DNA of 28,283 bases, from IMG/VR virus record IMGVR_UViG_3300043539_001392, positions 1 to 28,283 of that record; one strand, written 5' to 3'. A program made the translations under genes and the position numbers. This DNA comes from a virus. Position 1 is the first letter of the stretch. Each line of letters begins with the position of its first letter. This document shows positions 3,513 through 27,466 of this stretch, piece by piece. Under the pieces are notes generated by a model, which was given only the letters and a program-made list of their open reading frames with translations, made no database searches and was not told the origin of the DNA.

Positions 3513-5596
3513 TGTCAGCAAACTTAGAAAGTAAATTGATTGTTTCAAATCCAGACTTTAATGCGATTCGAAGCAACTTAAAAGATTTTTTGCGAGCTCA
3601 AACCACTTTTTCGGATTATGATTTCGAAGGTTCTGGTCTTTCTAATTTGATCGATCTGTTAGCGTATAACACTCACTATATGGCTTTCTATGCAAACATG
3701 ATTGCAAACGAAGCCTTCTTGGATACAGCCTCACTTCGTGATGCAGTAGTTTCTCACGCCAAGATGCTTGGATATACTCCAACTTCTGTAACAAGTGCAC
3801 GTGCAAATGTGAATCTAACCTTCACACAAGCAAATAATGCGGCTGTGGCAAATTTAACATCTCTCACGATTCCAAGATTTACAAAATTTGCTGGAATTTC
3901 TTTAAACGGAGTCAACTATACATTCACGACTCTTGAAGAAAAAACTGTAACAAAAGCCAATTCAGCATTTACATTCTCCAATCTCGAGATTACTGAAGGC
4001 AAACCAATAAACATTGTCTTCACTTATAGTGCGCAAAATAACCCACTACAACAATTTACAATTCCTGATCCAGATGTTGATACGTCAACACTAGAAGTTA
4101 TTGTTCAAAACTCTGCTGCCGACTTAACTCAAAAAACATATACGCTTGCTCTAGATGCAACTGAAGTTTCAGCAAATAGCGCAGTTTATTATCTTGATGA
4201 AATTAATGATGGAAAATATCAAGTATACTTCGGTGATGGTATTTTAGGTAAACAACTTTCAGATAGCAACATTGTGATTTTGAGTTATTTGAGAAGTAAG
4301 GGTGCTGATTCGAATAAGACAAATCAATTCACACTAATTGATTCAGTTGGAACATTAACAAGCGGAACAGTTGTGGTCAACGATGCTGCTCAAGGTGGCA
4401 CATCTGCAGAATCTATTAATAAAATTAAATTTACTGCGCCAAAAGCATTTGCTGCAAGAAATAGAGCAGTCACAAAAACAGATTATATTTCTCTAATTCA
4501 ACGCGACTATCCTTCTCTTGAAGCAGTCAACGTTTGGGGTGGTGAAGAAAATGATCCACCAGTTTACGGCAAAGTCTTTATTTCTGCAAAACCTGCTTCT
4601 GGCTACGAATTAACAACAACAGAAAAACAATATATTTTAAATGAGGTTGTTGCCCCGTTAAGCATGGTAACTGTAACACCAGAATTTGTTGACCCAGATT
4701 ATAATTATTTGAATCTAAGTGTTAAAGTTACTTACGATCCAACTGCAACAACGAAAACTCCAGGTCAGATTGTAAGCTCTGTAAAATCAGCTGTGTACAA
4801 CTTTGCAAATACAAACCTTGACAATTTCAATTCATACTTCAAAGTTTCTCGTTTGACAAGAGAAATTGATAATATCGAAACTGCAATTTTAAGTAACGAA
4901 ATTGACGTTACAATTGAGAAAAGACTTGAACCAATTCTTGGCGCAACACCAAGAAACTATACTTTGAAATATTATACGCCACTAAAGAAATCAACTAGCG
5001 GAAATAGAATTCGCTCAACTCCAGCATTTACTGCATATGACAGCGAAGATGTTGTTCGTCAGGTATTCTTCGAAGAAGTGCCCCAGTCAACAACAGGCAT
5101 CTCATCAATAACCATTAAAGCAGGTGGTTCAGGATTTACTGTTGCTCCAGAGATAAGAATCACAGGCGATGGCTATGGAGCAGCCGCAACAGCAGTAATT
5201 ACAAACGGCAAAATCACCTCTGTAAATATTACAAATGCTGGCTCAGAATATACAACAGCAGTTGTGAAAGCATATGACTCTGATGGAAACGAATTGACAA
5301 GCGTTTTACTTGAAGCAGTTATTCAGAATAGCGTCGGTAAACTTCGAACATACTATTTCGATGACAATCAAATTAAAACCATTCTTTCTGAAGATGCTGC
5401 AACAGTAGATTATGCTGCTGGAACAATCACACTTCAAAACTTCTCACCACTTGATATTAGAAATACTTTAAAAGTTCTTAAGTTCTATGCAATGCCTGAG
5501 AATAATTTGTTCAGTTCAACAAGAAGTTCAATTATAACAGTTGATCAAGAAGATGCAGCTGCAATCACTGTCGACGCTATACCTGTAACAATCTAA
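3512..5596 (+). CDS. 6: Baseplate wedge protein gp6
   Basis: At 694 aa it is close to T4 gp6 (660 aa). The N-terminus has the family pattern: FSDYDFEGSGLSNLIDLLAY and then MIANEAFLDTASLRDAVVSH, continuing with MLGYTPTSVTSARANV. The middle contains the gpJ-like segment with YQVYFGDGILGKQL and AARNRAVTKTDYISLIQRDYP. gp6 dimers form the iris-like ring holding six wedges around the hub. Unlike T4, a Gly-rich beta module (about residues 529-590, AGGSGFTVAPEIRITGDGYG) sits in the C-terminal half; similar modules occur in the gp7-position protein, gp8 and the 901-aa protein downstream. It overlaps gp25 by one base and is followed after one base by the next gene. Confidence 0.93.
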   Translation: MSANLESKLIVSNPDFNAIRSNLKDFLRAQTTFSDYDFEGSGLSNLIDLLAYNTHYMAFYANMIANEAFLDTASLRDAVVSHAKMLGYTPTSVTSARANVNLTFTQANNAAVANLTSLTIPRFTKFAGISLNGVNYTFTTLEEKTVTKANSAFTFSNLEITEGKPINIVFTYSAQNNPLQQFTIPDPDVDTSTLEVIVQNSAADLTQKTYTLALDATEVSANSAVYYLDEINDGKYQVYFGDGILGKQLSDSNIVILSYLRSKGADSNKTNQFTLIDSVGTLTSGTVVVNDAAQGGTSAESINKIKFTAPKAFAARNRAVTKTDYISLIQRDYPSLEAVNVWGGEENDPPVYGKVFISAKPASGYELTTTEKQYILNEVVAPLSMVTVTPEFVDPDYNYLNLSVKVTYDPTATTKTPGQIVSSVKSAVYNFANTNLDNFNSYFKVSRLTREIDNIETAILSNEIDVTIEKRLEPILGATPRNYTLKYYTPLKKSTSGNRIRSTPAFTAYDSEDVVRQVFFEEVPQSTTGISSITIKAGGSGFTVAPEIRITGDGYGAAATAVITNGKITSVNITNAGSEYTTAVVKAYDSDGNELTSVLLEAVIQNSVGKLRTYYFDDNQIKTILSEDAATVDYAAGTITLQNFSPLDIRNTLKVLKFYAMPENNLFSSTRSSIITVDQEDAAAITVDAIPVTI

Positions 5597-5597
5597 T

Positions 5598-8444
5598 ATG
5601 TCATCACAGAATAGACTTTCAACACTCGTAGAATGGCAACTTCCTGACTTTATTCGTCGGGATCATCCATTGTTCGTAGAATTTTTGCAAAAGTATTACG
5701 AATATCTTGAAACGCCAAATTCTCCTGTTTACGAATTAAAGAGATTCTCTGATAACTATGATGTAGATAAAGCCAGAGAAGCATTTTTACAATATTTTAA
5801 AAATAAAATCATACCTTCTTTTCCTGATTCTACAGAGTTGTCAACAGAAAGAATTATTAAGGCTGCGCGCGATTTTTATGCAAAGAAAGGTACTCCTGAC
5901 TCATTTAAATTTCTTTTCAGTGCTTTATATGGTGCAGAATTAGAAGTATTTTTCCCAAAATTACAAATTTTAAAAGCATCTGATGGTAAATGGATTCTAC
6001 CTCAAGCATTTCGTTTAACGCTTACTGGTGCAAATCTTTCTCTTGATTTAAATTTAATTGAAAAGCGAAAAGCATATGGCAGCATTTCCAGAGCGAGCTG
6101 TATTGTTGAAAGCGCAATAAGAACAATTGATAAAAGCACCAACAATGAAATTGTTGAAATTTATGTTTCAAATGTAAATCGTGCATTTCAAAATGGTGAA
6201 GATCTAGAAATAGAGTATCTTGACATTAATGGCGCGACTCAAACATTCTCAGAAAAGATTATTGGTGCACTTTCAAATATTCAAATTACTCAAAATCGTC
6301 GCGGCACAAGATATCTAACAGGTGACCCAGTTGTGATTAATGGTGGTTTGGATACCACATCAACTACAAAAGTAAAGGCTGTTGCAACTGTTGGGAATGT
6401 AACCACAGGTTCAATTGATTCTGTCACCGTATTAAATCGCGGATATGGATTTAGAACATTTCCAAATTCTTTAGTTGATATTGTAACAGCAAATGGCGTT
6501 GGTGCAAACGTAATTGTTGCTTCGGTAGACACAGCAAACAATATTGAAATTCCTTATAACATTGATGCAATTTTATACAAAAAAGATACTTTATTAAATG
6601 CTGCAGACTATGATTTTGATAATGTTGCTTCAGCAGACATTAATACAACCATTATTGATGCATTAACATTTGAAAAAATAAACGTTTATCCAATACTTAC
6701 AATGAGTGTTGTAAATGGCGGATCTTTCTTCAGTGAAGAGCCAACTTTAGATGTTGTTTCTCTATTCGAGAGTGATTATTCAGAAACAAATGGCAACCTA
6801 TTGTTAAGTCCAGGCTCATTTAGTACATACAATGCATCAAATTCTTCCATTAAATTTGTTGGTGGTGGGTTTTCTAGTGTGAATGATTATTACAATGGAT
6901 GGAGAATTTTACTTGAAAAACAATATAGAACAATCATAGATTATGATGGTGCAACTAAAACTGCATTTTTAGATAGATCGTTCGAAGTAAATATAAATTT
7001 AACCAATATTCTCACTAAAAATCTTTATCTTGATTCCCGCCCATCAACTAAATCTATGGGCTATATTGCTCACGTTGAAGTATTAAATGGTGGAAGTGGA
7101 TATGATAGTGGCGATACTCTTTCACTAGCTGGAACAGGTTATGGTGCTGTCCTCAGCCCAACGATAACAGGTGGTTCATTTACTGCAGTTTCAGTATCAA
7201 ATCGTGGTGAGGGATATGTTGAACCGCCAACAGTAATCGTAAATACATCAACTGGTAGTGGGGCATTATTTAAAGTTTATGTTCTTGGAAATGGTGAGGA
7301 ATTTGATGTTGTAACTGGAGACATTGGTCAAGTCAGAGACATTATTCTCTCAAATCGTGGATCAGATTATGTTTCAGCACCAAATGTATCACTAAAAGTA
7401 TATGACATTTTAATTTCTCCTCTTGGTGGATCTGAAGTAATTCTCGAGAATGATATTGTATATCAAGGTGTAAATGTAAATACAACTACATTTAGAGCCA
7501 TCGTTGATGAATATTATCCATCTAATAATATTATCAGAGTTTTCAATTATTCTGGTTCTATAAACGTAGCACAAAATCTTGTTGTTTATAAGACTGAGAC
7601 AGCAGCACAAACAAACACCTTCATTCAAACTTCAACGATTGGAGGTAAAACGTATCCATACAAATATGGTGACGGCAGAGCCAGAGCAACAGCAGAATTT
7701 TTAAATGGTCTTATTCGCTATAACGGATATTATCTAAACACCGATGGACAATTAAGTTCTGATAAGAGATTACAAGACGCTAAGAGATATCACAATTATT
7801 CTTATGAATTAATCTCTGATCGCTCTTACACTGAGTATAGTAAAACTGTTCTTGAGAGTTTACATCCTGCAGGCGCATCACTACTTGCTGCGCATATGAT
7901 CAAAACAGATTTGCAGGTCTCGCAGCTTTCTAATATAAATGTTCATACACTCTATACAAATAGTAATAGTTTAATCACGAACTGTAACGTTGGATTTAAT
8001 GCAGCTATTGTTTCTGGAAACACAGGCAGTGACTTTGATTTGCTTGCAAATATTGGTGATATTATCATAATTAATTCTGGTAATGTGTATCGCTCTTTTG
8101 CAAAGGTGATCACTTCGTTTACCAGCAACACTCAACTAAATATAGAGAGCCCTTGCGTTATTGTTGGTGAAGGTCGCGGTAAAGTTACAGCAAACCTCAA
8201 TACACTTACAATTAGCGGCAATTCAAACTCTATTGTACAATTCATCACAGTAGACGACGAACTTAGAATAAACGTAAATAATTCTATCTTGGTTAAAACG
8301 ATTAATAGTATTTCTGGCAATGTAATTACTCTCAACAGCAATGTGGGTATTACAACGACCAATACAAATCTTGTTTACTTCGTTTATCCGAAGTTAAACG
8401 CAGTAAGTTACAAAATAGTCAGTACGACTGACGAATTCTCTTAA
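5598..8444 (+). CDS. Large baseplate wedge/virion protein in gp7 position
   Basis: This 948-aa protein lies exactly between gp6 and gp8, where T4 has gp7 (1032 aa). Its start, LSTLVEWQLPDFIRRDHPLF followed by FLQKYYEYLE and FYAKKGTPDSFKFLFSALYG (about 1-120), is a domain common in marine T4-like virion proteins. Residues about 270-315 and 490-600 carry Gly-rich modules with the pattern GGSGYDSGD, GTGYGAVLSPTI and NRGEGYVEPPTVIV. Residues about 690-780 are helical and charged (RARATAEFLNGLIRYNGYYL, YSKTVLESLHPAG). The C-terminal 160 residues are beta-rich with many Asn, Ile and Thr. By position it would be the gp7-type wedge initiator that binds gp6 and gp8. I recognise the N-terminal family, but equivalence to gp7 is inferred from gene order. 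Confidence 0.75.
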   Translation: MSSQNRLSTLVEWQLPDFIRRDHPLFVEFLQKYYEYLETPNSPVYELKRFSDNYDVDKAREAFLQYFKNKIIPSFPDSTELSTERIIKAARDFYAKKGTPDSFKFLFSALYGAELEVFFPKLQILKASDGKWILPQAFRLTLTGANLSLDLNLIEKRKAYGSISRASCIVESAIRTIDKSTNNEIVEIYVSNVNRAFQNGEDLEIEYLDINGATQTFSEKIIGALSNIQITQNRRGTRYLTGDPVVINGGLDTTSTTKVKAVATVGNVTTGSIDSVTVLNRGYGFRTFPNSLVDIVTANGVGANVIVASVDTANNIEIPYNIDAILYKKDTLLNAADYDFDNVASADINTTIIDALTFEKINVYPILTMSVVNGGSFFSEEPTLDVVSLFESDYSETNGNLLLSPGSFSTYNASNSSIKFVGGGFSSVNDYYNGWRILLEKQYRTIIDYDGATKTAFLDRSFEVNINLTNILTKNLYLDSRPSTKSMGYIAHVEVLNGGSGYDSGDTLSLAGTGYGAVLSPTITGGSFTAVSVSNRGEGYVEPPTVIVNTSTGSGALFKVYVLGNGEEFDVVTGDIGQVRDIILSNRGSDYVSAPNVSLKVYDILISPLGGSEVILENDIVYQGVNVNTTTFRAIVDEYYPSNNIIRVFNYSGSINVAQNLVVYKTETAAQTNTFIQTSTIGGKTYPYKYGDGRARATAEFLNGLIRYNGYYLNTDGQLSSDKRLQDAKRYHNYSYELISDRSYTEYSKTVLESLHPAGASLLAAHMIKTDLQVSQLSNINVHTLYTNSNSLITNCNVGFNAAIVSGNTGSDFDLLANIGDIIIINSGNVYRSFAKVITSFTSNTQLNIESPCVIVGEGRGKVTANLNTLTISGNSNSIVQFITVDDELRINVNNSILVKTINSISGNVITLNSNVGITTTNTNLVYFVYPKLNAVSYKIVSTTDEFS

Positions 8445-18357: not shown

Positions 18358-21300
18358 ATGTCTAATCTACTTACAATTAATACAAAAGGAATTTTATTTC
18401 CTGATGGAAGTTTTCTAGATACTGCGCAAGTTGGATCAAATCTCAACGTTGCAGCAAATGGCTCATCTATTGAGTTTACGAAATTTCTCAATTTTATTAA
18501 TACTGATACAGTCACCGTTTCAGTAACTCCAAACACAGGTAATCCTGGATATACAAACGTTGCATTCACATCAACTGGTGGGGGTGGCGGTGGAGTGAGT
18601 GGTCCATCAGGTCCATCAGGTCCATCTGGACCAAGTGGTCCATCTGGAGCAGCATCAACAGTTTCTGGTCCGCAAGGCGCACAAGGTCCGTCTGGTCCAT
18701 CTGGCGCACAAGGTGCCGCATCTACTGTTTCTGGACCACAGGGTGCACAAGGTCCATCTGGACCATCGGGTGCTCAGGGGGCAGCATCTACAGTTTCTGG
18801 TCCTTCTGGTCCGCAAGGAACATCAGGTCCATCTGGTGCTGCCTCTAATGTTTCAGGTCCACAAGGTTCACAAGGTGTTTCTGGTCCCAGTGGTCCATCG
18901 GGTCCATCTGGCGCTGCCTCTACAGTTTCTGGACCATCTGGACCAAGAGGTATAACTGGTCCGTCTGGTGCACAAGGCGTATCAGGTCCACAGGGAACTG
19001 GTCCGTCAGGTCCACAAGGAACTCAAGGTGTTTCTGGTCCAAGTGGTCCACAAGGAGATCCAGGTGGTCCATCTGGTCCGTCAGGTCCACAAGGTCCGCA
19101 AGGTCCACCAAATGGTCCATCTGGTCCAAGTGGTCCACAAGGTCCTTCTGGTCCAACTGGTGACAAATATTCTACATCTAGTACATCGACATTTACGATT
19201 GCTCAAAATATAAACATCACGATTACAGTCGGCACTGGTTTATCTTGGACGCCTGGACGTGGTGCTCTTATTCGACACGATGGATTTAACTTTATATACG
19301 GAAGTGTTGAAGCATATAATCCAGCCACTGGTGAATTTACATTCTTCTCAGATCCAATTCTTGACTCTGCAGCAGGTGTAGGAAATTCATTTAGCAGTTG
19401 GAAAGTTGATGTTGCAATAATATTCTCAACAGTAGAAGGTCCTACTGGTCCATCAGGTGCTGCATCTACCATTTCTGGTCCAACTGGTCCGTCAGGTCCA
19501 TCGGGTCCATCTGGCGCTGCCTCTACAGTTTCTGGACCATCAGGTCCGAGTGGTCCAAGAGGTGCATCAGGTCCATCTGGTCCATCAGGTCCACAAGGAC
19601 CAAATGATGCAGCATCAATCAATTACATCCAAGATGGCACAGGTGCTGTTAGCAGAACAGTTCAAGCAGGATTGAGAGATCGAATTAGTGTATTTGATTT
19701 CATGACAACTGCTGAAATCACCGATGTTGAAAATAGATCGTTTACTCTTGATGTAACATCAAAAATTAAAGCAGCGATCGACGCTGCATCAGCACAAAGA
19801 AAAGATCTGTTCATTCCAGCAGGATTGTATAAGATCGTTCCAGCAACAGCATCTGAGTGGGCTGGTGGTGCTGCTGACTCTGGTCCAGTTTATGTTGCAT
19901 TTACAATACAAAATAATATGTCTATTGTTGCTGAGGAAGGTGCAGTATTTAAACTTGCAGACAATTTCTCAGTTGTTGGTGCTGTGAAAGCGCATGCGAT
20001 GTTCTTTACAAATGTCCCAACTGCAAATGTCTCCTTCTATGGTTTGACAATGGACATGAATGGAAATAACAATGATGGTATCGCGCCATTCCCTGGAGAC
20101 AATAATCCACAAATCTTTATTAGTGGTAAAACACCACGCTATTCTATTCCATCAAGAAGAGCAACAAGCACCTCAACCAACACAATTGGAACAGGATCAA
20201 AATCATTCACCATAGAAACTGGTAAAAGTTTTAGTGTTGGTGAAGATATTGGTATGTTAGTTGCTTCAGGAACTGGAGCATCATTATGGTCTATGCATGG
20301 AACCGTCACATCGTATAATAGTGGCAGCGGTGCTCTAGTGGTAAATGTAACTCAAACTAGCATATATGGAGTTGGTCAAAGCGTCGGTGGAAGTTCTGGT
20401 GGCGCGCCTCGTTGGGCAATTGGTGATGGTATTGGAGCATATATTGACGATGTTGTAATTGAAAAGTGCATCTTCTTGAATAATATGGGTAAAACTGTTC
20501 TTGGTTGTGCTCAATTAGATGGCGCAACGAAAATAAAATTAGGAAAAAATTGGAAAGTTCTGAACTGCACATTTAAAAATAATGGTAAACGTGCTGCGGA
20601 CCACTCAACATTTTACGGTATGGTTGATGATTTGACTGTAGAAGGATGTTCATTCACAGCAGATTCAATGTTCCCAAATGGTTCAACTGGACCATATGCT
20701 GATGGTGGTGGAACAATAACATGTGGTACACTTGTTGCGATTGAAACTCACGGAAGCAATCACAGATATAGTAACAATTTATTTGAAAATTACTATCAAG
20801 GATTTTGGATTGCCTCAAACGGAGCATTTGAAGCAAACAATATTGTAATTGCGCAAAATAATTTCAAAGTATTGACTTATGGAATGGGTTCGTATAGACG
20901 CGAAGGTGGTCCAACAATTATTCGAAATGTGAATATTTCTGACAATACATTCATATATGACAATACTTCTAGCGCAGATGGCGTTCCTAAAGTGGGTGTT
21001 CTTATTGCTGAAGATGAAGAGATTGAAGATTGGAGCATCTGTAACAACATTGCTAGAAAAGAAGTGCCTGCTGGGCAATCAAATTATCAATCTTATTTTA
21101 TAGGAATATTCACTGCACGTGTAAGCGGCGTGATGGATCGAATTGTTATTGATGGTAACTATTGCACTGGATTTGCTCGCGGCATTGTTTTGTATAGTGC
21201 TGTATCAGGAAAGAGTTTAGGAACAATTCGAATCACGAACAATACCATTTTAAATCCAAACACCACTTCATCATTCCCATCTGGTGCATATGGAATTTTG

Positions 21301-22047
21301 GCTTATACAACTGGTGGTGCATCTACAGTCAAAGAATTAATTATCGATAATAACTCATTTATTGATAATCGTGCTTCGCCACAAATGCAATATGGGATTA
21401 GATTATCTGGTGATTGGACAGTTAATAATCTTTGGAGAGATGGGAACAAATACTATGGATCAACAGTAGCAGATTTTGATTCAACTGGAGCGGTTATCAC
21501 AAATACACGATCTGCAGATGGCGGTGGTGCAACTGGTCCGCAAGGCGCACAAGGTCCATCTGGTCCAACTGGTGCACAAGGCTCACAAGGACCAAGTGGA
21601 CCAACATCAGGTGCTTCAAGCATCACGAATTTCACACCAACTTGGTATAATCAAGAATTTGGTTCTCCGCAAACAGCTGTAACGATTGGAAACGGAAACA
21701 ACGTTGGGTATTATAGTTTGAATGGAAATGAAGTTACAGTTGTCGCAACATTATTGTTGGGAAGTACAACAAGTATTGCCACCAAATCAACATCAGGATA
21801 TGTATATCTTGCATTACCCTTTGCCTCTGCTTATGCAGGATTAAGTTATAATGGTGTCTGGAGAATTTACGACGATAGTGTCGCTAAATTTTATAGTGGA
21901 TCTGCGTTTGTCGATGGTGGTGGTAGTACTGTCTCTTTGGCTGTTGATAATGGTTTGTTCGTTCGAAATGCTGCAGGTTCTGAGAATCCTGTAAATTTTG
22001 CTGCGGGAGACGCATTGTCCGTGCAATTAACATATTTCAAGACATAA
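18358..22047 (+). CDS. Collagen-like, beta-helix tail fibre/tailspike
   Basis: A 1229-aa multidomain fibre. Residues 1-30 hold the motif [12 protein letters not shown], common at phage fibre N-termini, followed by the module [14 protein letters not shown] shared with the two heptad fibres. Residues 82-268 are collagen-like Gly-X-Y triplets, mostly GPS and GPQ, interrupted by GAASTVSG. A small beta domain (about 268-358) precedes a second collagen stretch (361-415). From about 428, [17 protein letters not shown] and [10 protein letters not shown] mark the entry to a pectate-lyase-type right-handed beta-helix that runs to about 1045 (for example [34 protein letters not shown]). A second copy of the small beta domain is inserted near 600-685. 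A third collagen run (about 1060-1085) leads to a C-terminal tip domain ([13 protein letters not shown] through [14 protein letters not shown]). It probably binds or degrades surface glycans. Its many prolines make it the leading candidate substrate for the hydroxylase and glycosyltransferase downstream. Confidence 0.88.
18601..19161 (+). repeat. Collagen-like coding repeat, first block
   Basis: 9-bp units of the type GGTCCATCT encode Gly-Pro-Ser, Gly-Pro-Gln and Gly-Ala-Gln triplets. They group into longer modules separated by [16 protein letters not shown] and GVSGP breaks. Proline is nearly always in the X position; GPP occurs about once. Confidence 0.95.
19438..19602 (+). repeat. Collagen-like coding repeat, second block
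   Basis: Gly-Pro-Ser/Thr triplets with GAASTISG and GAASTVSG breaks lead straight into the beta-helix. The same module design as the first block suggests duplication. Confidence 0.93.
21535..21612 (+). repeat. Collagen-like coding repeat, third block
   Basis: A short run of GPQ, GAQ, GPS and GPT triplets joins the end of the beta-helix to the C-terminal tip domain. Confidence 0.9.
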
Positions 22048-22083
22048 TCAACTTGATTTTGGCGTAAATTTAACGTAGAATAT

Positions 22084-22101
22084 AGGGATGTTTCGATCCT
22101 T
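22084..22101 (+). other. Small hairpin upstream of late promoter
   Basis: AGGGAT and ATCCTT can pair (six pairs, one of them G-T) around the loop GTTTCG, in the only sizeable gap of the window. The following sequence is AT-rich but has no T-run, so it is a poor intrinsic terminator. It touches the first base of the TATAAATA box. Confidence 0.3.
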
Positions 22102-22108
22102 ATAAATA
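22101..22108 (+). promoter_or_regulatory. T4-type late promoter (TATAAATA)
   Basis: An exact TATAAATA lies in the 84-bp gap between the collagen fibre and the 36-residue-repeat gene, 24 bp before ATG 22132. This is the same distance as the promoter before gp25. It is the only such box at the head of the repeat-protein and modification-gene group, so those genes are probably transcribed late, with the fibres. Confidence 0.72.
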
Positions 22109-22131
22109 TAAAAAAGATTTTTGGGATTACT

Positions 22132-23301
22132 ATGTCAGATTTAAATAAAACTTGGCTCCCTGGACCTTCGAGAGGAACGACTACCGTAACCTCTCCAGGA
22201 AACGTTACAATCCCATATGGTCGTTTTGTTGGTACAGTTTCAGGAAAGGGTGCTCCTGGAAACTCTCCAGTAACAGCAGGTTGGGTGACAAACTATAACA
22301 CCAATTATAATGTTGCGTATCCAATCGCCAATCAGCCGATCGCAAATCAGCCACTGGCGAATCAGCCAGCAACTGCTTGGACAACCAATTACAATACAAA
22401 CTATAACACCAATTATAATGTTGCGTACCCAATCGCGAATCAACCAATCGCCAATCGTCCAATCGCAAATCAACCAGCAACTGCTTGGACAACAAACTAC
22501 AATACCAATTATAATACGAACTATTTCGTAACATATCCATTTGCTGGATTCGGTTTTGGACACTTCTCGTTTGGTGGAAATAATCCAGGTGTTTATTTCG
22601 TGAACTCTTATCGATATTGGACTTACGGTATCTATCAAAACCAAGCTGGTCCTCCAGGATATGTTCAAAGTACCAGTTACAACTTCGACGACTCTCAATG
22701 TCCATCGCACTTTGCATTCGATCAAACAAATCCATTACAATATCAGTGGCACTGGGTTTACTTTCAATGCTGGCATCAATTTGCACCAGGAAATGCATTC
22801 TTTTTCACAAATTACAATACAGAATATAACGTCGCATATCCTGTTGCAAATCAACCAGTGGCAAATCAACCAATTGCAAACCAGCCTATAACTGCTTGGA
22901 CGACAAACTATAATACCAATTATAATACGAACTACAACGTTGCTTATCCAATTGCCAACCAACCAATCGCAACTCAGCCACTGGCGAATCAACCAATAAC
23001 TGCTTGGACGACAAACTATAATACAAATTATAATACCAACTACAATGTCGCGTATCCAATTGCGAATCAACCAATTGCAAATCAACCAGCCACAGGATTT
23101 ACTCCTGGAAACATTGGTGCTTCTGCTTCTGCTCTTGGTGTGACATTACCTGGCGGTGCAGTTGGTAATGTGATTGATGGTGGTCCAATTCCAGCGACAC
23201 CAATTTCACCAACAACAGTAAGTTACTGGACTTACCCAGATAATTCAACATATCCTGTTACAGCCCCTTCTGGATCGGAAGTCGTAATTAAACTTGAATA
23301 A
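22132..23301 (+). CDS. Protein of 36-residue NYNT/ANQP modules around a Cys/aromatic core
   Basis: A 389-aa protein that I do not recognise. Residues about 53-131 and 226-321 consist of modules with an exact 36-residue period. Each module reads TAWTT, then NYNT repeated every four residues, then NVAYP, then the pentapeptide IANQP about three times. Between the arrays is a unique domain (about 132-225), rich in Phe, Tyr, Trp, Gly and His with two cysteines (DSQCPSHF, YFQCWHQF). Residues 1-50 are Gly/Pro/Thr-rich (WLPGPSRGTTTVTSPGNV), and the C-terminus has a Gly-rich hinge and a beta-like end (YWTYPDNSTYPVTAPSGS). There is no signal peptide or membrane helix. The strict period suggests a beta-solenoid or other fibrous structure. 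It has its own late promoter and lies 24 bp before the hydroxylase gene, so its many ANQP prolines are a second candidate substrate. The function is unknown. Confidence 0.82.
   Translation: MSDLNKTWLPGPSRGTTTVTSPGNVTIPYGRFVGTVSGKGAPGNSPVTAGWVTNYNTNYNVAYPIANQPIANQPLANQPATAWTTNYNTNYNTNYNVAYPIANQPIANRPIANQPATAWTTNYNTNYNTNYFVTYPFAGFGFGHFSFGGNNPGVYFVNSYRYWTYGIYQNQAGPPGYVQSTSYNFDDSQCPSHFAFDQTNPLQYQWHWVYFQCWHQFAPGNAFFFTNYNTEYNVAYPVANQPVANQPIANQPITAWTTNYNTNYNTNYNVAYPIANQPIATQPLANQPITAWTTNYNTNYNTNYNVAYPIANQPIANQPATGFTPGNIGASASALGVTLPGGAVGNVIDGGPIPATPISPTTVSYWTYPDNSTYPVTAPSGSEVVIKLE
22288..22524 (+). repeat. 108-bp coding repeat array, upstream block
   Basis: Modules with an exact 108-bp period: the TAW codons begin at 22372 and 22480. 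Each carries an NYNT tract and an ANQP tract. The first module is incomplete at its left end, and the last breaks into the unique core after NTNY. Confidence 0.92.
22807..23094 (+). repeat. 108-bp coding repeat array, downstream block
   Basis: The same modules as the upstream block: TAW codons begin at 22891 and 22999, again exactly 108 bp apart. The array starts with a variant (TNYNTEYNVAYPV) and ends with a shortened ANQP tract. Third-base differences between copies show they are not very recent duplicates. Confidence 0.92.
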
Positions 23302-23325
23302 TTAATTGAGAGTGGAGTGAATATT

Positions 23326-23916
23326 ATGTTTAAGATTGATAAATTCAAAAGACAGTTTCCTAAATTCTGTCATGTTGAACAAGTCTTTTCTAAAGAAGAA
23401 GTAAAAAGAATTTATGATTTGGAAGATTTAGAAAAATTCCGAAGAGGAATGGTTGGATCTAATAATTCTGAAGGTGAGGTTAAACTCGAATCTCGAGATT
23501 CTGAGATTATGTGGGTTAATCCTAATCATGAATCAGGTTGGATCTTTGATCGTTTTGCTCAAGTCTTAGCAAACGTGAACTATGATTTCTTCAATAGTAA
23601 TATTAATCATATGGGTCCATTTCAATATACTCTTTATCGCGAAAATCAATATTATAACTGGCATGTTGATTCAGATTCCATGTATGCTGATTTAACTCGA
23701 AAAATTAGTGCAACAATTATGTTATCTGATGCTTCTGATTATGTTGGTGGTGAGTTCGAATTGATTGCAAATGGTAATGTGGAACAGCCAATAATGCTTC
23801 GACCAAATGCAGGTGATATTATTTTCTTCGCCTCTCACATGCCTCATCGTGTTCGAGCAGTTACACAAGGTGTGCGGAAATCGCTAGTGAATTGGATATA
23901 TGGACCATGGGATTAA
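23326..23916 (+). CDS. 2-oxoglutarate/Fe(II) dioxygenase, prolyl 4-hydroxylase-like
   Basis: A 196-aa enzyme of the double-stranded beta-helix dioxygenase fold. The metal triad is visible: His113 and Asp115 in NWHVDSD and His174 in MPHRVRAV, with Arg184 (VRKSLVNW) ten residues later as the likely 2-oxoglutarate salt-bridge residue. This H-x-D...H...R layout, with GGEFEL before and VTQGVR after, fits the PKHD/prolyl 4-hydroxylase group. The likely reaction is O2- and 2-oxoglutarate-dependent hydroxylation of peptidyl proline, in the host cytoplasm during assembly. I choose ATG 23326 over GTG 23317 because GGAG at 23314-23317 is well spaced for it. It lies 24 bp after the repeat-protein gene. 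Phage 2OG oxygenases are common and often of unknown target; the proline target is inferred from the collagen-like fibre and the GT60-like enzyme nearby. Confidence 0.88.
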   Translation: MFKIDKFKRQFPKFCHVEQVFSKEEVKRIYDLEDLEKFRRGMVGSNNSEGEVKLESRDSEIMWVNPNHESGWIFDRFAQVLANVNYDFFNSNINHMGPFQYTLYRENQYYNWHVDSDSMYADLTRKISATIMLSDASDYVGGEFELIANGNVEQPIMLRPNAGDIIFFASHMPHRVRAVTQGVRKSLVNWIYGPWD

Positions 23917-23926
23917 TGGATAAATT

Positions 23927-24673
23927 ATGGATCTCTCAAAGTTCACAAAACTCAAGTTTTGGTCAAATAACATCATTGAATTTTATTGTAGAAAAGAATT
24001 CGAAGGTGTAATTCCTGAACCAAAACCAGCAGCGAAATACTTTCCAGAATGGTTTAAAAATCTAGAACCATACATTGCTGCTAGAGATAAAAGCAGTGGT
24101 GATAAAAGAATCATGACTGCGAAAAGATGTCTGCCTCTCATCGATGCAATGTCATTGGGTTTTGTTATCCCTCTTGCTGCTGATTGCCACGTTTTAACAA
24201 ATCATGACAATTCTCAAATACTTTTTAATGGATTGGCTGGATCATTCCCAATTATTGAATCTCATGATAAGCGACAAGTCGGAGGTCACAGCACAATTAA
24301 AAGAAATAATGGAGATGCTCTTAAATTCCTAAATTATTGGGTTGTGAAAACTGCTCCAGGATGGTCAAGCCTTTTTATTCCTCCGATTAATAATTTCTCA
24401 CAGCCGTTTACCTGTTTAGGTGGAATGGTTGATACTGACAAATATACAAAAGAAGTGAATTTTCCAGCAGTTTGGCATGCTCATAATTTTGATGGAATGA
24501 TTTATGCAGGAACACCGCTTATTACTGTAATACCAATTAAAAGAAATATTTTTGATAAGAAACCTGTTATTCGAAAAATGACTAAAAAAGAACAAGAAAC
24601 TCATAATCAAATGAATCGAATTCAAAATAGTCGTCTTAGTTATTATACAAATGAGTTGAGGGTTAAGAAATGA
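23927..24673 (+). CDS. DUF6065-like protein, first copy
   Basis: A 248-aa protein. Its pattern is KYFPEWFKNLEPYI near the N-terminus, then TAKRCLPLIDAMSLGFVIPL (about 64-84), a His-containing stretch (IIESHDKRQVGGH, about 109-121), KTAPGWSSLFIPPINNF (about 142-158), CLGGMVDTDKY (about 164-174), and YAGTPLITVIPIKRN (about 195-209). The order resembles DUF6065, a poorly characterised family with a probable jelly-roll core. No catalytic residues can be assigned with certainty. The gene follows the hydroxylase after 10 bp and overlaps its relative downstream as ATGA, so it belongs to the same operon. Possible roles are a scaffold or partner of the modifying enzymes, or an oxygenase-like enzyme of its own. 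The family link is by eye and moderate. Confidence 0.7.
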   Translation: MDLSKFTKLKFWSNNIIEFYCRKEFEGVIPEPKPAAKYFPEWFKNLEPYIAARDKSSGDKRIMTAKRCLPLIDAMSLGFVIPLAADCHVLTNHDNSQILFNGLAGSFPIIESHDKRQVGGHSTIKRNNGDALKFLNYWVVKTAPGWSSLFIPPINNFSQPFTCLGGMVDTDKYTKEVNFPAVWHAHNFDGMIYAGTPLITVIPIKRNIFDKKPVIRKMTKKEQETHNQMNRIQNSRLSYYTNELRVKK

Positions 24674-25455
24674 GATTTATTAAGTATTTTATGGGTGATA
24701 ATAATGACATTTTGGACAATGGCATTCATCCAAAAAAAGACGATATTGAGTTTATCTGTTTCATGGGTCAGGCTGCGTCTCATGAACAAACTCGAGTTAA
24801 ACTTGCAAAAGAAGTCGACACAAAATTTAAAAAGTATCAAGTCGAAAAGCATGGATCGTACACCTTTGCTCAATGTCCAGGAATGTTAGATTATTCCCGT
24901 CTAGGATATATCATTCCAGCATGGACCAACTTTGAGTTCATGTACAACTCTGCAGGTGTAGAGATATTTGATGGAACAATCGATTCTAGAGTTCGCTCTA
25001 AAATTCCATTAAGAGGATTCGATCCAACTATTTTCGATGGCGCAATTAAAAACGACGATGGATCTAAAACTGAAATCTATAACATTCAAGCACCTTGGCA
25101 TATTCGATGCAAGCCTGGAGTCCATATGATGATTATGCCTGCATTCTATCATAGCAATATTCTAGATGATTTTCATATCCTTCCAGGTGTTATTGATTAT
25201 GGTAGCGGATTTCATACGATTAATTTCTTAACTGGACCAAAGAGATATGGTCAGTTTAAGATTATGATGGGCGAGCCTCTATTCCACATCATTCCTCTCA
25301 AGAATGTCCCATTCACTGCTTCTTATGGACTTGTTGATAATTATAAAAATGTCTATAAAGAAGATGAGTTTTTTGGTAAAATTAAGAGTTTCTATAGAAA
25401 ATTTTATTGCGGAAAGAGAAAATTCTCCTTACGAAAGGAGATGGGAGATAAATGA
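24670..25455 (+). CDS. DUF6065-like protein, second divergent copy
   Basis: A 261-aa protein with the same order of landmarks as the gene before it: YTFAQCPGMLDYSRLGYIIP (about 60-79), a variable strand region, WHIRCKPGVHMMIMPAFY (about 144-161), FHILPGVIDYG (about 169-179) and MMGEPLFHIIPLKN (about 200-213). It has diverged strongly, and the His-rich middle of the first copy is not conserved. The C-terminus is basic (FYRKFYCGKRKFSLRKE). Both borders are ATGA overlaps, with the first copy upstream and the glycosyltransferase downstream, so translation is coupled. The pair may form a heterodimer, but this is inference and the function is unknown. Confidence 0.68.
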   Translation: MRFIKYFMGDNNDILDNGIHPKKDDIEFICFMGQAASHEQTRVKLAKEVDTKFKKYQVEKHGSYTFAQCPGMLDYSRLGYIIPAWTNFEFMYNSAGVEIFDGTIDSRVRSKIPLRGFDPTIFDGAIKNDDGSKTEIYNIQAPWHIRCKPGVHMMIMPAFYHSNILDDFHILPGVIDYGSGFHTINFLTGPKRYGQFKIMMGEPLFHIIPLKNVPFTASYGLVDNYKNVYKEDEFFGKIKSFYRKFYCGKRKFSLRKEMGDK

Positions 25456-26435
25456 AAACTATTTTCGTAAGCATTGCTTCATATAGAGATAAACTTCTTT
25501 TAGCAACTCTGAACTCATTAAGGCAAAATGAGTCTGGTCGAAATAAGATCGTTTATGGTGTTTTCGAACAGACCAAAAAAGAAGACAGTTTAGAGACAAA
25601 AGCACCAGAGTTGCTAGACAATGCTGCGATTCGATACAAAAGAATAGACCCAGAATATGCTGATGGAGTCGTCTGGGCTCGAGCAATCAACGCCATGCAG
25701 CACTATGATGAAGAGTTTTTCTATCAGATCGACTCTCATATGCTCTTTGATAAAGACTGGGATAACACTCTTTTGTGGGACTATCAACAAGCATCTAGGC
25801 TTGCAAATAACCCTAAAGTTATTTTAACAACAGGCACGAAGAATTTCGAGTATTTCTCAAATTATATCACAAAACATACACTAACTCGTGATATAACAGT
25901 GAATTTTAAGTATTGGCAATTTGATAAGGAATTATGTCTAAAGGTTCATGGTCCTTGGATTGCCGCGACTGATACTGTTGTTCCTGGAATCCATACGATC
26001 GCAGGTAACTTTTTCGCACCTGCTACCTGGATTAAAGATGTCGGATTCAACACTAGATTGTTTTTTGAGTATGAAGAACAATATATGTCTCTTACATCCA
26101 TATTGGCTGGATATAAAATCTATCATCAGAGAAAGATCCAATGCTATCATTATCTGGATTCTGCGAAATCAACAACTCGCCAAGAGAACGATCCAGTTCG
26201 TCCGTCGAAGATCTTTGACAATAAGAAGCGAGAGAAGGAGGAATTTATCAATTATATATACTCTTTAGGTGAGGAGAAACTTGAAGAATATCGAAGATTG
26301 ACAGGAGTTGATTATATAAATAGAAAATTAGAAGAGCGCGCAATCACCAGAACCGTTCCTCCAACAATTCCTGTTGATTGGGAATTGCCTCAACCACCAG
26401 AACCAGCAAAAGACGAAGAGAAAAATGAGCCTTGA
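25452..26435 (+). CDS. GT60-like glycosyltransferase (Skp1 hydroxyproline GlcNAc-transferase family)
   Basis: A 327-aa glycosyltransferase with the landmarks of Pfam GlcNAc (PF11397, CAZy GT60). These are the N-terminal IFVSIASYRDKLLLATLNSL (4-23), YGVFEQ, then DGVVWARAINA before the metal/nucleotide motif FFYQIDSHMLFDKDWD (Asp94-Ser95-His96 in place of DXD). The acceptor/catalytic side has GNFFAPATWIKDVGFN and LFFEYEEQYM (Glu208, Glu209), then AGYKIYHQRKIQCYHYL (His233). The characterised members in Dictyostelium and Toxoplasma transfer GlcNAc from UDP-GlcNAc to a hydroxyproline of Skp1. No signal or membrane segment is visible, as expected for a cytoplasmic enzyme of this family. The last 35 residues are Pro/Glu-rich (VPPTIPVDWELPQPPEP). 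It shares an operon with a prolyl-hydroxylase-like gene, so modification of hydroxyproline on a fibre is the best guess. The sugar and target are unproven. Confidence 0.85.
   Translation: MKTIFVSIASYRDKLLLATLNSLRQNESGRNKIVYGVFEQTKKEDSLETKAPELLDNAAIRYKRIDPEYADGVVWARAINAMQHYDEEFFYQIDSHMLFDKDWDNTLLWDYQQASRLANNPKVILTTGTKNFEYFSNYITKHTLTRDITVNFKYWQFDKELCLKVHGPWIAATDTVVPGIHTIAGNFFAPATWIKDVGFNTRLFFEYEEQYMSLTSILAGYKIYHQRKIQCYHYLDSAKSTTRQENDPVRPSKIFDNKKREKEEFINYIYSLGEEKLEEYRRLTGVDYINRKLEERAITRTVPPTIPVDWELPQPPEPAKDEEKNEP
26315..26322 (+). promoter_or_regulatory. Possible internal late promoter (TATAAATA)
   Basis: An exact TATAAATA lies inside the 3' end of the glycosyltransferase gene, 103 bp before ATG 26425. 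It could serve the unknown gene and the fibre genes after it, but it encodes Tyr-Ile-Asn in an AT-rich gene and may be chance. Confidence 0.3.
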
Positions 26436-27111
26436 AAATGATTTTAAAGAAGTATTTTCATATTCAATGCATGCTGGTGGTGGGACCAATCTAAATTTCG
26501 ATGACATTGATAAAAATCTCTATAATACTCGAAAAATTGATCGATACTTTCTAGAAGGTATCAAGATCGACCCAAAGATCCACTCTACTCAAATGTTTTT
26601 AGCCAATAGTTTTTATTTTCTAGTGGCTGGAGAGATTGATATTAAATATCAAGACGGATCCGACGATCGCGTTTCTGGTTCTTATTATAATTCGAATGAT
26701 TGGGTTTCCTATAAAAAATTCTGGACTGAGAATAAGCCATGTAAGATTATTCCTTCTCAGAATGCATGTTTATATAAAATTCAGAGAATAAAAGAAATAC
26801 AGAATGATTCGCCTCTCAACGATCTATCAAACTTAAATGTGATAGTTAAAAAAGTGAGTGCAGATAACGTTTCTTTCACTACAACAGGTAATAGCATTCT
26901 TCTAGTGTTTAATGCTAGCATGGAAGAATTTACTTTAAGAAATGAAACAATTGTGTTTAATACCTCAACTGAATCTGATTATTGCGAAATTCTTATTGAC
27001 AAGAATCCGCAGTTTATAAAATTTAAAAATTATTATAGATTCTCAGTTAACGGAAATTGCACATTTTCTACTGCAAACTCTTGTCATTTAGTTTTGTTGA
27101 CACCAAAGTAA
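26425..27111 (+). CDS. Unknown protein at end of modification operon, possible cupin-like fold
   Basis: A 228-aa protein that I do not recognise. I choose ATG 26425 (ribosome site GAAGAG at 26415-26420) over in-frame codons further upstream inside the glycosyltransferase gene; this leaves an 11-bp overlap. The N-terminal half has HSTQMFLANSFYFLVAGEID followed by IKYQDGSD, then CKIIPSQNACLYKIQRI, a spacing of strands and turns that recalls cupin/jelly-roll proteins. The C-terminal half is beta-rich with Asn/Phe/Thr (FTLRNETIVFNTSTES, FKNYYRFSVNGNCTFS). No metal-binding triad can be assigned. The coupling to the GT60-like gene suggests a shared pathway, but it could equally be a structural protein. 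Confidence 0.65.
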   Translation: MSLENDFKEVFSYSMHAGGGTNLNFDDIDKNLYNTRKIDRYFLEGIKIDPKIHSTQMFLANSFYFLVAGEIDIKYQDGSDDRVSGSYYNSNDWVSYKKFWTENKPCKIIPSQNACLYKIQRIKEIQNDSPLNDLSNLNVIVKKVSADNVSFTTTGNSILLVFNASMEEFTLRNETIVFNTSTESDYCEILIDKNPQFIKFKNYYRFSVNGNCTFSTANSCHLVLLTPK

Positions 27112-27127
27112 AGAATAGGAAAATAGC

Positions 27128-27466
27128 ATGGCAAGTCAAGTAGAATTATTTTGCGATCAAGGATCTACATTTTCCTACACGATAGATATTGCAAATGACG
27201 ACGGCACAAAAATTAATGTTGCTGGATATTCATTCTCATCATCTATTCGTAAATCATATTATTCAAATAAAGTTGCTGCGAATTTAACCGTGGCAACTAC
27301 AGACGCCGCAAACGGAAACGTTGCATTATCTATGAATGCAGCAACTACAGCAAACATTAAAGCTGGCAGATATCTTTATGACGTTAGAATGGTAGACACA
27401 TCAAATGTTGTTACACGTGTGATTGAAGGAGTCATTACTGTCTACCCACAAGTAACAAAGTCATAA
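27128..27466 (+). CDS. Small beta-rich tail protein
   Basis: A 112-aa protein of a type common beside fibre genes in marine T4-like phages. Its start is SQVELFCDQGSTFSYTIDIA; then come a Tyr/Phe-rich strand (INVAGYSFSSSIRKSYYSN), AATTANIKAGRYLYDVRMVD and a C-terminal strand (RVIEGVITVYPQVT). The length and the order of strands suggest a single immunoglobulin-like or BppU-N-like sandwich domain, perhaps an adaptor for the following fibre. AGGA at about 27117-27120 precedes ATG 27128. The next gene begins 4 bp after its stop. The virion location is inferred from context. Confidence 0.72.
   Translation: MASQVELFCDQGSTFSYTIDIANDDGTKINVAGYSFSSSIRKSYYSNKVAANLTVATTDAANGNVALSMNAATTANIKAGRYLYDVRMVDTSNVVTRVIEGVITVYPQVTKS

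Follow-up and report, generated by a model that had tools for sequence, protein, structure and literature searches.

Analysis of IMG/VR virus record IMGVR_UViG_3300043539_001392 (the window, 28,283 bases, taken as a whole) revealed a compact same-strand block encoding a tandem-repeat protein, a prolyl-hydroxylase-like 2-oxoglutarate (2OG)-Fe(II) oxygenase, two DUF6065-type proteins and a GT60-family glycosyltransferase (GT), and the order of this block is conserved across divergent uncultured phages. We consider it probable that these genes form a phage-encoded post-translational modification module that acts on the tail-region repeat protein. A more specific version, to which we give slightly less than even credence, is that the phages themselves produce a hydroxyproline-rich glycoprotein, namely a fibre of quickly evolving Pro/Asn/Tyr repeats with many hydroxyprolines capped by N-acetylglucosamine (GlcNAc), sulfate or both, the enzymes being encoded in the same block. 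The chemistry, the target residue (proline is favoured, with Ser/Thr and Asn open) and the location in the virion are what we infer from the genes.

All genes from position 18358 onward lie on the + strand. Open reading frame (ORF) coordinates and profile matches place each gene where a first-pass annotation of the DNA had put it; that annotation had overlooked the DUF6065/phrog_7084 pair between oxygenase and transferase. The genes are as follows.

18358..22047, + strand: collagen-like/beta-helix tail fibre gene (Pfam Collagen, 1.4e-17), a neighbour and non-constant member of the module
22132..23301, + strand: tandem-repeat protein with NTNYNVAYPIANQP repeats, proposed substrate of the module; no family above cut-off
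23326..23916, + strand: prolyl-hydroxylase-like 2OG-Fe(II) oxygenase (PF13640, 2e-15); alternative start GTG at 23317
23927..24673, + strand: DUF6065 copy a, predicted dUTPase-like fold (DUF6065, 5.4e-8; phrog_7084, 1.2e-56)
24670..25455, + strand: DUF6065-like copy b, divergent (phrog_7084, 4.3e-17)
25452..26435, + strand: GT60-family (PF11397) glycosyltransferase (2.5e-26)
26428..27111, + strand: orf7, putative accessory gene; no family match, relatives by iterative search
27128..27466, + strand: small tail-fibre-assembly-like protein (phrog_1084, 3.4e-28; phrog_3304, L-shaped tail fiber protein assembly, 2.9e-16)

When the repeat protein was used as query, 21 loci were returned; four come from near-identical viruses, and the other 17 (L027-L043, which include near-identical ones, L028, L029 and L037 scoring alike) all encode repeat protein, oxygenase, DUF6065, DUF6065 and GT in this order. 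From searches of viral contigs with the GT profile, the best 80 of 97 and then the best 80 of 240 relatives were examined; k-mer clustering of 153 loci, some contigs being counted twice through overlapping searches, gave 37 clusters. At least 2 kb lies upstream of the GT in 34 of the 37 cluster representatives, the other three being cut, with DUF6065 up to the contig edge. The order oxygenase-DUF6065 a-DUF6065 b-GT is found in 29 of these 34 and is rearranged in four (repeat protein-oxygenase-GT-repeat protein-oxygenase-DUF6065 a-DUF6065 b), and one has a lone GT. The pairing of a hydroxylase with a GT60 enzyme, proposed in the first-pass annotation from the window itself, is thus borne out by a shared block in 33/34 clusters of divergent viruses. 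The Pro-rich repeat protein, which had been put forward there as a second candidate substrate, proved to be the constant neighbour, preceding the oxygenase in all 31 clusters with enough upstream contig. The 37 representatives hold 39 oxygenases, of which 37 have a detected upstream feature; the nearest such feature is a repeat protein for 35, at a spacing of -11 to 65 nucleotides in 33 of the 35 and of about 1.4 kb, with other genes between, in L095 and L140. Upstream calls only were used here, as repeat proteins were also flagged by a YN/FN count that mis-tagged some downstream tail fibres, and the repeat proteins of L091, L093, L140 and L171 and one of the two in L090 were identified by eye, not by end profiles.

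The window oxygenase matches 2OG-FeII_Oxy_3 (PF13640) with 58 bits against a cut-off of 27 (E 2e-15), and this family is over cut-off in 18/18 module records. The N-termini of relatives favour ATG 23326 as the start, and counted from this codon the residues H113-x-D115, H174 and R184 had been numbered correctly at first pass; counted from GTG 23317 they are H116, D118, H177 and R187. Alignment of 30 oxygenases shows H116, D118 and R187 (GTG numbering) to be invariant and H177 to be present in 27, with all four retained in the window enzyme; we take them to be the HxD...H iron triad and the 2OG-binding arginine of prolyl 4-hydroxylases (P4Hs). An AlphaFold2 model built from 30 sequences (predicted local distance difference test (pLDDT) 87.8, predicted template modelling score 0.83) has as its best fold match the P. 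putida P4H bound to EF-Tu (4iw3; Z 21.2, root-mean-square deviation (rmsd) 2.7, 179 residues), and further matches include PHD2 (Z 20.0) and PBCV-1 vCPH (5c5t; Z 19.3), with a Dictyostelium PHD and an algal P4H also among those listed. The best 50 of 504 Foldseek matches (E up to 0.001) are all prolyl-hydroxylase or PKHD-type structures, of which 3dkq and PiuC bear the PKHD name; the oxygenase falls far under the cut-offs of the PKHD-type/PRK05467/YbiX NCBIfam equivalogs (66 versus 143, 46.3 versus 180, 36.6 versus 399 and 32.4 versus 336 bits). The modelled fold is thus closest to P4Hs, and the profile match, the four catalytic residues and the Z score of 21.2 uphold the initial description of the enzyme as prolyl-hydroxylase-like.

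The transferase likewise belongs where it had been placed: a PF11397 (GlcNAc) profile search gave 93.4 bits against a cut-off of 21 (E 2.5e-26), and the family is over cut-off in 18/18 records that hold the module. QIDSHM, GNFF and FEYEEQ are all present in the window protein, and D118, S119 and H120 (D-S-H), invariant across an alignment of 19 diverse GTs, presumably constitute the conserved metal/nucleotide motif. The PDB contained no useful sequence relative of the GT or of DUF6065. In a collection of phages the window GT had no relative at 1e-5, and a threshold of E 10 gave just seven records, all distant or due to chance; the L128 GT as query (E up to 0.01) retrieved three records of jumbo phages, and in the two examined no oxygenase or DUF6065 profile matched near the GT60-like gene. 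A scan of genome contigs gave 35 pattern matches and no relatives, and was non-exhaustive because it missed the GT relative of contig L209, which was found later with DUF6065. L006, a candidate relative with 33% identity over 57 residues, was dropped, its similarity being due to chance and the set of ORFs around it unrelated. One GT60 domain (L097:7001-8554) is fused to a methyltransferase domain (PF08242, 3.4e-7), which perhaps methylates the sugar.

No Pfam, PHROG or NCBIfam family scores above cut-off for the window repeat protein, and Extensin_1 reaches 17.6 bits, far under its cut-off of 105. Relatives share the N-terminal end (KTW...YGR...V.G.GG) and the C-terminal end, and the repeats are highly variable, with lineage-specific units such as NTNYNVAYPIANQP, SYNTVPGNLNPTNYPYTPA, YNAQNIAS, GPQNFNAPTN and YNPGNIASYTGNN. 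The repeat regions of 29 proteins, for which the ends were trimmed approximately before counting, contain 3.9-20.2% Pro, 8.1-25.5% Asn and 11.1-32.4% Ser+Thr, and the step [YF]N exceeds the expectation from composition in 29/29 (45 versus 16.3 in L095; 54 versus 14.7 in L128). The repeat proteins of L090 (2793-5003) and L093 (2605-4875) end in a Hint/intein-like domain (L090: AXH 8.6e-11, Hint 4.2e-7), which suggests self-processing or ligation of the repeat protein. A match of the L128 repeat protein to PF11528 (DUF3224; 30.8 versus 25 bits) was rejected as low-complexity noise, no single stretch passing.

A converse search, using the N-terminal end of the repeat protein from six close sequences and covering that subfamily, returned 34 loci: 29 with the full module, one cut off, and four, in two lineages, with a Sulfotransfer_2 gene in the block. 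PF11397 was not found in the four Sulfotransfer_2 records (158,915 and 82,212 bases among them; completeness not established), in a search that gave no match in controls and matches 18/18 module records. L095 has a sulfotransferase besides GT60, and L140/L141 have one downstream of GT60; an ORF of similar appearance, for which Pfam gave no match, lies upstream of the oxygenase there. A PF03567 survey gave matches in 9/37 records at E 0.001, four of them over cut-off and some far from the module (G003, G020). The two lineages with a sulfotransferase and no GT60 found had also been overlooked at first pass. Judged from their sequences, the candidate hydroxyl-capping enzymes are exchanged while oxygenase and repeat protein stay, which fits the prediction of a hydroxylate-then-cap scheme without proving the new hydroxyl to be where the cap is attached. 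In L101 the stretch 5284-7425, downstream of the module, encodes a dioxygenase of PhyH type (2.7e-12) as well as an ORF resembling sulfotransferases (18.9 bits, below the cut-off of 22).

A mechanism can be proposed in which the oxygenase would hydroxylate the low-complexity repeats at numerous positions, most probably prolines, during their synthesis in the infected cell, and GT60 would then add an N-acetylhexosamine (GlcNAc by family precedent) to the new hydroxyls. In some lineages a sulfotransferase would act instead of or besides GT60, and the DUF6065 proteins, with their predicted dUTPase-like fold, could serve as a scaffold or in some accessory function. On this scheme the finished repeat protein would form an extended, fibre-like part of the virion, glycosylated and rich in hydroxyproline, with fast-evolving repeats; if this is true, the set of enzymes would stay constant and decorate any repeats that arise, and the virion surface would vary. 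Proline hydroxylation with GlcNAc addition is here suggested by analogy to known enzyme pairs.

Several observations weigh against this scheme. Proline is scarce in the repeat region of L095 (3.9%), and Asn and Ser+Thr are as universal as Pro, occurring in all 29 repeat proteins. The L136 cluster (4 loci) has a lone GT with no oxygenase nearby, XacN1 and RAS14 carry a GT60-like gene with no oxygenase or DUF6065 profile match in its vicinity, and lone GTs may be commoner among distant relatives because only the best 80 were fetched per search. In L088, L090 and L092 the oxygenase beside GT60 has its distal iron-binding histidine replaced (PSR/PAR), and a second, intact oxygenase-DUF6065-DUF6065 set follows another repeat protein; L091 and L093 have the same arrangement. 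Because this histidine is lost in these three aligned examples of the rearranged loci, their GT-adjacent oxygenase may be inactive, and the second copy may be the working one. For the chemistry and the virion location alike, the evidence consists of genes and predicted folds.

Other assignments of substrate were weighed against modification of repeat prolines. Direct, mucin-type glycosylation of Ser/Thr in the repeat protein, as by the trypanosome GT60, with the oxygenase independently hydroxylating another residue, would accord with the Ser+Thr content of every repeat region (11.1-32.4% in all 29) and with the inclusion of mucin-type pp-alpha-GlcNAcTs in GT60 (PMC8724618), a point that itself tells against the proline scheme. 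We nevertheless regard it as unlikely, given that the oxygenase lies in the block of the GT in 33/34 clusters and that sulfotransferases, which also need an acceptor such as a hydroxyl, occur in the same block, including two lineages in which no GT60 was found. That the oxygenase instead hydroxylates the Asn of the [YF]-N step found throughout the repeat proteins, or its aromatic residue, with the transferase capping that hydroxyl, seems to us decidedly improbable: the enrichment of the step in 29/29 proteins and an Asn content of at least 8.1% in all of them would suit it, but [YF]N may simply be structural, and the best 50 of 504 fold matches of the oxygenase are all of prolyl-hydroxylase or PKHD type. 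Tyrosine and phenylalanine also interchange between related repeats (L107 versus L132), which speaks against the aromatic ring as the target.

The collagen-like fibre had been the principal substrate in the first-pass annotation, and it does lie directly upstream in the window. The survey of the pair against collagen-like genes found such stretches in the flanks of only 17/31 cluster representatives and none in 14/31 (some fetched flanks being short), so the fibre is not a constant partner. In animal collagens the Y-position prolines are often hydroxylated, and a prophage-collagen paper states that bacteria and viruses are without the enzymes (PMC3368898). The window fibre has 81 Gly-X-Y triplets with Pro at X in 54 and at Y in 2, and Y-Pro accounts for 49/5,344 triplets in the collagen-like stretches of L056-L208. 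The two-step pathway first envisaged for fibre prolines thus stands with respect to the enzyme families and their conserved pairing and is unsupported with respect to its substrate, and we rate the fibre as the least probable main target. The host surface or phage DNA, in place of a phage protein, is scarcely more probable as the target of the enzymes. Glycosyltransferases in pelagimyophage host-recognition regions have been read as O-chain modifiers (PMC7029224) and cyanophage 2OG oxygenases as serving nitrogen metabolism or DNA repair (PMC3037559), and the predicted dUTPase-like fold of DUF6065 could be taken in the same sense; against this stand the close pairing with the repeat protein, seen also before the second oxygenase of rearranged loci, and an oxygenase fold closest to protein prolyl hydroxylases.

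DUF6065 copy a scores 33 bits against a Pfam cut-off of 26.6; copy b has no Pfam match, only phrog_7084, and shares 17% identity with copy a in alignment. DUF6065 is listed for 24/25 copy-a members at E up to 10, and there is no dUTPase sequence profile among the six Pfam families listed for the 25 at this threshold. The copy a model (pLDDT 82.4) has a possible fold match in dUTPase 3h6x_B (Z 10.0, rmsd 3.4, 121 residues; Foldseek best E 1.7e-4). Homologues lie near ribonucleotide reductase genes in HRTV-15 (L054), HF1 (L055) and cyanophage S-RIM4 (L255), and this neighbourhood, taken with the predicted fold, hints at a nucleotide role in those three viruses. Within the stretches covered, haloviruses with DUF6065 gave no profile match for an oxygenase or a GT, and cyanophage stretches with DUF6065 have neither enzyme annotated; the presence of DUF6065 is therefore by itself no marker of the module.

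The modification proposed for the repeat protein would be chemistry of an established type in an unfamiliar setting. If true, it would to our knowledge be the first protein hydroxylation-then-glycosylation system in bacterial viruses, a counterpart there of plant extensins and protist Skp1 chemistry. Literature on phage hydroxylases, hydroxyproline, sulfotransferases, virion glycosylation, Skp1/GT60 and DUF6065 describes no such module, in a search that left most subscription journals outside; to that extent it agrees with the first-pass remark that the pair was not known to have been described as a phage fibre-modification system. Plant and algal hydroxyproline-rich glycoproteins (extensins) consist of low-complexity Pro/Tyr-rich tandem repeats that are hydroxylated and glycosylated, the latter by arabinosyl/galactosyl transferases. 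The phage system resembles them in its Pro/Tyr-rich tandem repeats, in the proposed multi-site hydroxylation and glycosylation and in the algal P4H among its fold matches, and differs in the low Extensin_1 score (17.6 versus 105 bits) and in its use of GT60. Mimivirus-type viral collagen modification employs a lysyl hydroxylase/glucosyltransferase; as there and with PBCV-1 vCPH (Z 19.3), a virus would encode its own hydroxylase for viral proteins, but the present module is apparently found in bacterial viruses, with a non-collagen substrate and GT60.

For Toxoplasma Skp1, by homology with Dictyostelium, PhyA hydroxylates and the GT60 enzyme Gnt1 then adds GlcNAc, Gnt1 activity being PhyA-dependent (PMC6939170). 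In protists the enzymes of such pairs frequently occur as fusions (PMC8724618), and a title cited in the same paper names a dual-function P4H/GlcNAc-transferase of a plant pathogen. The coupling of a prolyl-hydroxylase-fold 2OG oxygenase to GT60 is common to both systems. The module differs in being phage-encoded, in having a putative many-site repeat substrate where Skp1 has one proline, and in its two DUF6065 genes and, in certain lineages without a GT60 match, a sulfotransferase; no oxygen-sensing role is implied for it. Mycobacteriophage virion glycosylation (Freeman 2023, as cited in PMC12619734) is similar in that sugar is attached by a phage to proteins of its own virion, as proposed here, and is different in its substrate, with no hydroxylation step mentioned in the excerpts of the citing paper. 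T4-like phages of aquatic habitats carry many 2OG oxygenases, to which roles in nitrogen metabolism or DNA repair have been assigned (PMC3037559). The proposed modification, if true, would give some of these enzymes a concrete role and would account for DUF6065, GT60 and an unannotated hypervariable repeat protein travelling together. The viral GT60 branch is a starting point for asking how the eukaryotic hydroxyproline pathway arose, and the block is a testable, self-contained gene set for making a modified Pro-rich protein in bacteria.

PF00124 (photosystem II D1/D2-type) matched none of 10 records, the lone-GT record included, so a cyanobacterial host is unsupported by this test. L209, a 4.4-kb contig binned in a Chitinophagaceae metagenome-assembled genome, carries the phage module itself (a repeat-protein end, oxygenase, two DUF6065 genes and GT60); Chitinophagaceae was not accepted as host on this basis. 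Across 296 genomes of the phylum to which Chitinophagaceae belongs, PF11397 matched in eight, six of them over cut-off; one is L209 and the other seven are marginal.

The first 16 kb of the window encode mostly T4-type tail and baseplate proteins, as judged from PHROG matches, and a further tail fibre gene lies downstream of the small tail-fibre-assembly-like gene. The latter forms the downstream border of the block in the nearer relatives of the window (16/17 loci L027-L043, the 17th ending soon past the GT). ORFs related to orf7 follow GT60 in part of the module loci, as found by iterative search, and in L095 and L140 the gap from repeat protein to oxygenase contains ORFs whose resemblance to orf7 was judged by eye alone.

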